Source of the DNA: an uncultured Pelagibacteraceae bacterium
GTDB lineage: Bacteria; Pseudomonadota; Alphaproteobacteria; Pelagibacterales; Pelagibacteraceae
DNA length: 64,000 bases
Assembly (NCBI GenBank): GCA_902590915.1
Contig: CACIYQ010000001.1
Span: 186,001 to 250,000 of the forward strand
Direction of reading: 5' to 3'
Shown here in pieces: positions 19,698 through 21,174 of the stretch. The stretch's first letter is position 1; each line of letters starts with the position of its first letter. Below the pieces are notes generated by a model. That model saw only the letters and a list, made by a program, of their open reading frames with translations. It ran no database searches and had not been told where the DNA came from. The translations under genes and the position numbers were made by a program.

Positions 19698-19731
19698 AAT
19701 CTCGACACACTCATGACACACTTCGACACAG
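19698..19731. repeat. Left arm-like iterated repeat, three GACACA units
   Basis: aatctcgacacactcatgacacacttcgacacag; GACACA at 19704, 19715, 19725. Confidence 0.75.
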
Positions 19732-19836
19732 AAAAGAAAAACTATGGTGAGTGGCATAAAATAAAATTGTAATTAAACTGTTACAAATTTTTCATCTTGT
19801 TTTGATAGCTTTCCATTAACCAAAAAGGAATATATA

Positions 19837-21087
19837 ATGATAAAATTTATCTTAGCAGGCCTTCTGGCCTCAACCGCATTTGTTAGCACAGTAAATGCAG
19901 ACTTTAAAGAAATTGGGAAATTTGGAACACCAGCAAATAACCCTAGTGCAGAAGAAACATCAGCAGAAATAATTGCGGCAACAGCAGATGGCATGAAACT
20001 GGTATATAGCGATAGCCCTGCAAACGCATTAGGCATGATTGATATTACTGATCCAGCAAATCCGAAACCATTAGGCCACATGCATTTAGGTGGTGAACCA
20101 ACTAGTGTTGCAATCAAAAATGGACAAGCATTTGTAGGTATTAATACTTCTCCAAACTATGTAGAGCCAAGTGGTCACTTATTAATTGTTGATCTTGACT
20201 CAGGAAAAGAAGTTACAAAAGTAGAACTAGGTGGACAACCAGACTCGGTTGCAGTTAGTCCAGATGGAACTTTTGTAGCAATAGCTATTGAAAATGAACG
20301 TAACGAAGATATCAACGATGAAAAAATTCCACAACTTCCTGGGGGTTTTGTGGCAATTGTTAATTTAGCAGATAACAGTGTTACTAAAGCGGACTTAGTT
20401 GGTTTTTCAACTATTGCTCCTAACGATCCAGAGCCTGAGTTTGTTGATATCAATAATTTAGGTGAAATAGTTGTTACTATCCAAGAGAATAACTGGATGG
20501 CGGTTATTGATCGAAGTGGAAAAGTAATTTCAGAGTTTGATGCAGGACTAGTAACATTAGAAGGTGTTGATAATAAAAAAGATGGTGAACTAAAGATGGT
20601 TGATACCATTGAGAATGTTCGTAGAGAACCAGACGCAGTTAAGTGGATTGACAATGATCATTTTGCAACTGCAAATGAAGGTGACTATAAACATGAAGCA
20701 CCGGGTCAAGCAAAACGTGGTGGTAGTCGTGGATGGACAATCTTTAATAAAAATGGTTCGGTGGTATACGAGTCAGGTTCGTCATATGAAAGAGCACTCG
20801 CTTCAGCAGGTTACTGGCCAGAAAAACGTGCAGAGAAAAAAGGTGTAGAACCAGAGTCAGTTGAAGTAGCAATGTATGGTGATACACGTTATATCTTTGT
20901 TGGTGCTGAAAGAGCAAATGCTATCGGTGTTTATAAAGCAAATGATTTAACAAACCCAGAATTAGTTACTATATTACCAACAGGGATTGGACCAGAAGGT
21001 TTAGTTGCTATTCCACAACGTAACTTATTTATAAGTGCTAACGAAAAGGACTTAGAGAAATCAGTTACAATTTATAGCTTAGATTAA
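19837..21087 (+). CDS. Secreted beta-propeller protein, choice-of-anchor-I / phytase-esterase-like
   Basis: Signal peptide MIKFILAGLLASTAFVSTVNA; GMIDITDPANPKPLG, GGQPDSVAVSPDGTFVAIAIENERNE; island cargo. Confidence 0.75.
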   Translation: MIKFILAGLLASTAFVSTVNADFKEIGKFGTPANNPSAEETSAEIIAATADGMKLVYSDSPANALGMIDITDPANPKPLGHMHLGGEPTSVAIKNGQAFVGINTSPNYVEPSGHLLIVDLDSGKEVTKVELGGQPDSVAVSPDGTFVAIAIENERNEDINDEKIPQLPGGFVAIVNLADNSVTKADLVGFSTIAPNDPEPEFVDINNLGEIVVTIQENNWMAVIDRSGKVISEFDAGLVTLEGVDNKKDGELKMVDTIENVRREPDAVKWIDNDHFATANEGDYKHEAPGQAKRGGSRGWTIFNKNGSVVYESGSSYERALASAGYWPEKRAEKKGVEPESVEVAMYGDTRYIFVGAERANAIGVYKANDLTNPELVTILPTGIGPEGLVAIPQRNLFISANEKDLEKSVTIYSLD

Positions 21088-21103
21088 TAACTAAATTTAG
21101 CTT

Positions 21104-21123
21104 GTGGGGGCGGTAGCCCCCAC
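21104..21123 (+). terminator. GC-rich hairpin downstream of island cargo gene
   Basis: gtgggggc-ggta-gcccccac perfect 8-bp stem, followed by a second hairpin aaacttt-catat-aaagttt; no strong U tract. Confidence 0.55.
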
Positions 21124-21151
21124 CATAAACTTTCATATAAAGTTTTGAAAA

Positions 21152-21174
21152 AATCTCGACATACTCACGACACA
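21152..21174. repeat. Right arm-like repeat, two GACA(C/T)A units
   Basis: aatctcgacatactcacgacaca, 21/23 identical to 19698-19720. Confidence 0.75.

Follow-up and report, generated by a model that had tools for sequence, protein, structure and literature searches.

How could a single gene, with no integrase beside it, come to lie inside a tRNA gene between two sets of repeats that resemble the arm sites of a phage integrase? The question is raised by a 1.6 kb cassette in the tRNA-Gly(GCC) gene of an uncultured Pelagibacteraceae (SAR11) bacterium, located in the 64 kb stretch of DNA that we analysed (hereafter, the window). The attP sites of tyrosine recombinases have iterated arm-binding sites flanking the core, and a preliminary description of the window had read iterated GACACA units just inside both ends of the island as P and P' arms. 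Our analysis supports this reading: the motif is tied to tRNA genes, the same architecture occurs together with an integrase in other elements, and circular satellites carry a joined attP. It is likely, judging from the sequences compared below, that the GACACA repeats are the P and P' arm sites of a tyrosine-integrase attachment site, and that they mark the ends of a small, integrase-less cassette that sits in the anticodon stem-loop of tRNA-Gly(GCC) and is probably moved in trans by the integrase of a phage-satellite element.

Anatomy of the island and its two ends

Direct reading of the sequence found the GACACA repeats where they had been placed at both ends (Table 1). The left end reads aatctcgacacactcatgacacacttcgacacag and the right end reads aatctcgacatactcacgacacag, and the aligned 23-mers of the two ends are identical at 21 of 23 positions, as claimed. 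An 11-nt unit spacing had also been claimed; it holds for the right pair and for the first step on the left, but the left array has three units, the third of which follows after only 10 nt. A weak third unit, TTGGTGATA, stands after the two units of the right arm. The pattern TCGACAYACTCAYGACACA, with up to three mismatches, matched exactly twice in the 64 kb, at the left and right arms, and had no match in 100 dinucleotide shuffles of the same 64 kb. With up to two mismatches, the same two sites were the only ones in the whole assembly.

Table 1. Features of the tRNA-Gly(GCC) island, in window coordinates.
Feature	Position	Strand	Remarks
attL core: tRNA-Gly(GCC) 5' half to end of anticodon stem-loop	19604..19644	+	40/41 identical to 21250-21290
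Spacer, core to left arm	19645..19697	+	homologous to spacer of integrase-bearing satellites at same tRNA
Left arm: direct units TCGACACA / ATGACACA / TCGACACA	19698..19731	+	GACACA at 19704, 19715, 19725
Cargo: 416-aa secreted choice-of-anchor-I protein (PF22494)	19837..21087	+	
GC-rich inverted repeat GTGGGGGCGGTAGCCCCCAC 3' of cargo gene, terminator-like	21104..21123	.	direct reading
Right arm: direct units TCGACATA / ACGACACA	21152..21175	+	GACATA at 21158, GACACA at 21169; spacing 11
Putative element-borne promoter region of reconstituted tRNA	21209..21249	+	perfect -10 box TATAAT at 21231-21236
attR: complete tRNA-Gly(GCC)	21250..21324	+	5' half probably element-derived and 3' part host-derived, from crossover position

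tRNA cores had been proposed at both ends. The right end does have a complete tRNA-Gly, but the left end has the 5' half only, which Rfam scores as a weak tRNA (31.6 bits) and whose resemblance to tRNA stops directly after ...AACGAG. The distances between arms and cores had been given as about 54 and 76 nt. We measured 53 nt from the left tRNA half to position 19698, and 57 nt to the point where the TCGACACA unit begins; on the right, position 21174 and the complete tRNA-Gly are 75 nt apart. The two copies of the tRNA 5' half share 35 identical nucleotides, including the anticodon stem CTCGT-TGCCA-ACGAG. The island thus has the parts of an attachment site of the lambda/P2 type of tyrosine integrase: a core, identical at both ends, whose short inverted repeat lies at the crossover, and arm-type repeats that flank this core within the element.

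The island contains one gene only, and no integrase, primase or terS. The left arm is placed like that of autonomous elements, which lies between the tRNA half and int. The cargo protein is about 53% identical to cyanophage proteins annotated as phoA/alkaline phosphatase. No canonical terminator and no T run were found at the inverted repeat behind the cargo gene. The region of the -10 box before the tRNA is kept in most right ends of related islands, and the element presumably supplies the promoter and the 5' half of the tRNA that it interrupts.

Distribution of the arm motif and spread of the island

We scanned 84,980 GTDB genomes (257 Gb) for the exact 19-mer motif and found it in 47 stretches: 43 from SAR11 (single-cell genomes and MAGs of Pelagibacterales), one from a MAG labelled Flavobacteriales, and three from unrelated contigs, which look like chance matches. 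The contig labelled Flavobacteriales (L196, PAGT01000030.1) has a SAR11-like tRNA-Gly island and SAR11-like neighbour genes, and is probably misbinned. Repeats spread widely through intergenic DNA of the same genome, away from tRNAs, had been named as an observation that would contradict the arm reading; instead, the motif is confined to SAR11-type contigs in GTDB if the apparent chance matches are set aside, and 48 of the 56 exact sites in SAR11-type contigs lie at fixed distances, 55-76 nt, from tRNA-Gly or tRNA-Thr. Sixteen of the 56 stand 56-57 nt after a tRNA-Gly half, 25 stand 74-76 nt before a complete tRNA-Gly, and for 7 the distance to the 3' end of tRNA-Thr(TGT) is 55-66 nt. The remaining eight have no tRNA nearby; seven of these belong to a copy of the phosphatase gene that lies outside tRNA sites and has a hybrid right/left arm downstream of it. 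The phosphatase gene was seen at non-tRNA loci in L176, L188, L194, L197, L198, L210 and L219; in the hybrid arm, right-end sequence comes first and left-end-like sequence follows.

In 197 genomes of the family, the pattern GACACAN5GACACA was found at 43 places versus 2 for a reversed control, and in the window's genome it is restricted to this island and another, in tRNA-Met. A scan of IMG/VR for the exact arm gave one match, which falls within a coding gene on a phage contig rich in GC and which we judged to be due to chance. A second arm type, YCACACTCTNGGCACAGTGG, gave no match in the IMG/VR scan.

The cargo is 94.7-99.5% identical (mean 97.1%) over 30 loci, versus a mean of 72.7% for its LON/PCD/purH neighbours, and it is more conserved than the flanking core genes in 30 of the 30 loci, several of which are the same genome twice, so that they stand for fewer than 30 independent genomes. 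The window element and that of another host, G010, are 97.8% identical over the whole element, versus 51% for the 120 nt upstream (random 48%), 88% for the 3' part of the tRNA and 64% downstream. Comparison with five other hosts gave 91-98% identity for the element and 43-76% for the flanks. Similarity between divergent hosts is lost abruptly at the tRNA, with the edge in the anticodon region. Empty sites were also present, in that other genomes have the same tRNA-Gly beside PCD with no insert, and in many of them LON directly adjoins it too. Taken together, these alignments show that the island spread between divergent SAR11 hosts with sharp edges.

The same ends enclose other cargos, namely two different sulfotransferases, a trypsin-like protein and a 195-aa unknown protein, and a pilin-like cargo protein occurs with a different arm. 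The motif also stands beside genes for sulfotransferases and for small secreted proteins, and beside a restriction-like operon. The second integrase-free island in the window's genome (L116, 7823-9745; G000 C4), in tRNA-Met, has a left arm of GTCACA and GGCACA and a right arm of GACACA, and a phosphatase island, L137, combines GGCCACA units at its left end with GACACA at its right end. Left and right arms differ in several islands, and the arms look exchangeable between elements. From the mixed arms of L137 we infer that an island may change its integrase through recombination in the arms.

Tandem cassettes, each closed by a tRNA 3' half, were seen in tRNA-Thr(TGT) in L192 (2012-5971), L177, L046 and L047; their genes vary, being of small secreted, pilin-like or restriction-like kinds. 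A near-identical signal peptide, MKKLLGIVVLGLLLS..., is found on unrelated cassette proteins (L003, L005, L116, L117, L118, L120, L122, L124, L177, L192 and others), as if a common 5' module had been fused to different mature proteins.

Integrase-bearing relatives and circular satellites

Within the genus, 21 of the 399 genomes have integrase homologues. The tRNA-Gly site is occupied in G204 (L133) by a 6.1 kb element with an integrase and a phage-type primase, and in G148 (L131) by an 8.4 kb element with an integrase. An element in tRNA-Met of G280 (L118) encodes an integrase, a primase/helicase-like AAA protein and a terminase small subunit; it has a TGACACA arm directly before int, and next to it, in tandem, comes a cargo-only cassette whose arm is of the same kind. 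Integrases of the same family also stand beside what reads as the 3' part of tmRNA (ssrA) in L162 and L165.

Read individually, nearly every complete integrase gene has two to three direct units, for example TGGTCGCAGTATGGGACGCAGTTGGTCGCA or TGTCACAAGCCTGTCACA, between the tRNA or tmRNA part and the int start. When the repeat was scored as an 8-mer pair at least 7/8 identical, with a spacing of 11 and within 85 nt of the start codon, it was present upstream of int in 13 of 20 non-redundant integrase genes, versus 0.49 expected from dinucleotide shuffles. This count missed at least one of the 20, L162, for which a wrong start codon had been used; the repeat is present there by eye. Spacings other than 11 were near background, except for 4 cases at 12 nt.

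The integrases at tRNA-Gly have the units GGTCGCA, GGGATGCA and GGCTACA, which are related to, but different from, TCGACACA. No integrase with an exact TCGACACA arm was found in the genomes or in IMG/VR, no integrase homologue lies inside the loci with exact TCGACACA arms, and a profile search of IMG/VR with the tRNA-Met subset of integrases returned nothing. The proposal that the repeats define the recombinase family therefore stands in part, in that the relatives have HP1/lambda/P2-like integrases, but none of these comes with the exact arm.

Three IMG/VR contigs of 5.9-6.2 kb (L171-L173) have terminal direct repeats of 55, 99 and 123 nt and were therefore read as circular. Their order is right-end region, tRNA half, left arm and int, which is that of a joined attP. 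The right-end region of the circular satellites has arm-like units (for example, GGACTCA and GGCACACA in L173) that are less regular than those on the left. L173 has a tRNA-Gly core and a terminase small subunit. In L171 and L172, circular and about 6 kb long, the core is a tRNA-Val-like 5' half, and the integrase is accompanied by an AAA (primase/helicase-like) protein.

The left end of the window's island (19645-19745) aligned with that of L173 at 63% identity, with a score of 24 versus a maximum of 8 in 1000 shuffles, and with that of G204 at 60% (15.5 versus a shuffle maximum of 1.5). The left end of the second island of the window's genome aligned at 70% with an integrase element in the same tRNA-Met (29.5 versus 3.5). 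Because these alignments score above the shuffles, the cargo-only islands have ends in common with integrase-bearing elements.

The satellite integrases match PF00589 and PHROG 1, and their profile matches among solved structures are integrases, including HP1 integrase and lambda integrase. The two best-scoring structure chains, 5c6k and 5dor, are labelled only 'Integrase'; we take both to be P2 integrase. Known arm-binding domains consist of a three-strand sheet plus a helix. In an AlphaFold2 model built from three sequences, which is of low confidence overall (mean pLDDT 58), the first 48 residues of the integrase form three strands and a helix, with pLDDT 74-78 over the first 40, and the N-terminus is thus predicted to be like known arm-binding domains.

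Proposed movement of the cassette and comparison with known systems

We infer binding of the arm units by an integrase and movement of the cassette in trans, the latter because the island has no such integrase, its genome assembly shows none of this family and none with the exact arm was found. The spread of the island between divergent hosts likewise suggests the recombinase of a related element. The excised circle would have the order right arm, tRNA promoter, tRNA 5' half (core) and left arm. A satellite or phage, either co-resident or incoming, would provide in trans an integrase of the P2/HP1/lambda type. The small N-terminal arm-binding domain of this enzyme would contact the units, whose 11-nt spacing is about one helical turn, and its core-binding and catalytic domains would contact the tRNA core. 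Recombination of attP with attB in an empty tRNA-Gly would then restore a complete tRNA, whose 5' half and promoter the element would supply.

The arm sites might be genuine and the island nonetheless a dead satellite remnant, which lost its integrase and spreads only by homologous recombination via its flanks. The element has no integrase and none of the satellite family was detected in the host assembly (81% complete), and the hybrid arms and the non-tRNA phosphatase copies resemble recombination products. However, the island keeps its high identity where host flanks are mostly at or near random, with its edge at the anticodon region, the cargo outdoes the flanking core genes in conservation at every locus, and many different cargos occur within the same ends; we regard a dead remnant as unlikely, if less so than the other alternatives. 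That the host itself moves the island, with a tyrosine recombinase of 323-325 aa found genus-wide (G000 C9), is very improbable. In this genome, as in most of the genus, no other protein matches PF00589, but its N-terminal match, from residue 24, is to a SAM-like core-binding domain (PF02899), it does not have the short N-terminal extension found in the satellite integrases, and no arm repeats lie near its gene. The genus genomes G001-G036 (for example, the complete G012) mostly have one weak PF00589 recombinase of about 325 aa each, and no XerC/XerD-like pair of the kind seen in the sister family (G037-G060) was observed in them, although an ftsK-like gene is present (window 15656-17740).

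The repeats themselves could have another use. PhoB boxes are 11-nt direct repeats too, and the cargo resembles phage proteins annotated as phoA, so a regulatory box such as a Pho box could be thought to control the phosphatase-like gene. Pho boxes stand upstream of Pho-regulated genes and have no tie to tRNAs. Here, one repeat copy is downstream of the gene, the motif also flanks genes of quite different kinds, the same geometry is found upstream of integrase genes, and GACACAN5GACACA occurs in this genome only at two tRNA islands. The placement is thus neither confined to the upstream side of a gene nor independent of tRNAs, and we rejected the Pho box, whose chance of being right is slight in the extreme. 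Binding of an accessory factor (an excisionase or an IHF-like protein), instead of the N-terminal domain of the integrase, is somewhat less improbable than these last two, yet still doubtful: the repeats extend into the int leader, which in KplE1 is also bound by the directionality factor (PMC2951348), but they are present at both ends of the element, their sequence varies among integrase-bearing elements while the spacing is kept, and that spacing fits tandem arm-type sites.

Read as a cassette with integrase arm sites, the island can be set beside known elements. In the KplE1 prophage and many other prophages inserted in tRNAs, the arm sites overlap the int promoter region (PMC2951348). The attL of KplE1, with its heterobivalent tyrosine integrase IntS, is likewise a tRNA attachment site with arm sites between core and int (PMC2951348), but KplE1 retains its integrase, whereas the window cassette has the arms and a cargo where int would be. 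Tycheposons are elements of 4-200 kb at tRNAs (PMC10872708), and the marine satellites also include VEIMEs and PICMIs (PMC10803314). Marine satellites are small and integrase-bearing, PICMIs have a primase and tycheposons lie at tRNAs, and TerS and primase-like genes occur in the autonomous SAR11 relatives. The window element differs in being 1.6 kb long, with one gene, no int, primase or terS, and a SAR11 host; a satellite has its own integrase and usually a primase, which this element lacks but its relatives at the same site have. Charybdis elements (PMC12324425) were set aside, being about 4.6 kb long, with archaeal hosts and a different gene content. The island also resembles CIMEs, in which the integration genes are lost and the att sites retained (PMC5704250). 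As in CIMEs, attL and attR are kept, integrase and transfer genes are missing, and tandem accretion occurs at the target gene, here in the tRNA-Thr and tRNA-Met arrays (PMC5704250). The difference is that the parents here are satellite-like and not ICEs, and that the island stands by itself in many hosts and seems to spread on its own.

Cassettes of this kind, with one gene, no integrase and arms that look exchangeable, appear to be new for SAR11; we found no published description of them in the literature searched, and one may exist elsewhere. A tRNA half together with 11-nt-spaced arm pairs gives a searchable signature for small mobile cassettes, covering those that carry genes for phosphatase-like, sulfotransferase, secreted and restriction-like proteins from one SAR11 lineage to another. 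There is, in our estimate, an even chance that SAR11 has an integron-like but unrelated system, in which integrase-free cassettes of one or a few genes consist of a tRNA half and two exchangeable arrays of 11-nt-spaced arms, insert singly or in tandem in tRNA genes, and are acted on in trans by satellite integrases, while recombination in the arms lets a cargo change its integrase. A gene cassette of an integron is a single gene that brings just its recombination site and does not encode a recombinase, and the window cassette works in a similar way. Unlike integron cassettes, it has no attC hairpin and no IntI platform; instead, it has an arm-bearing attP as its site, and tRNA genes are where it lies.
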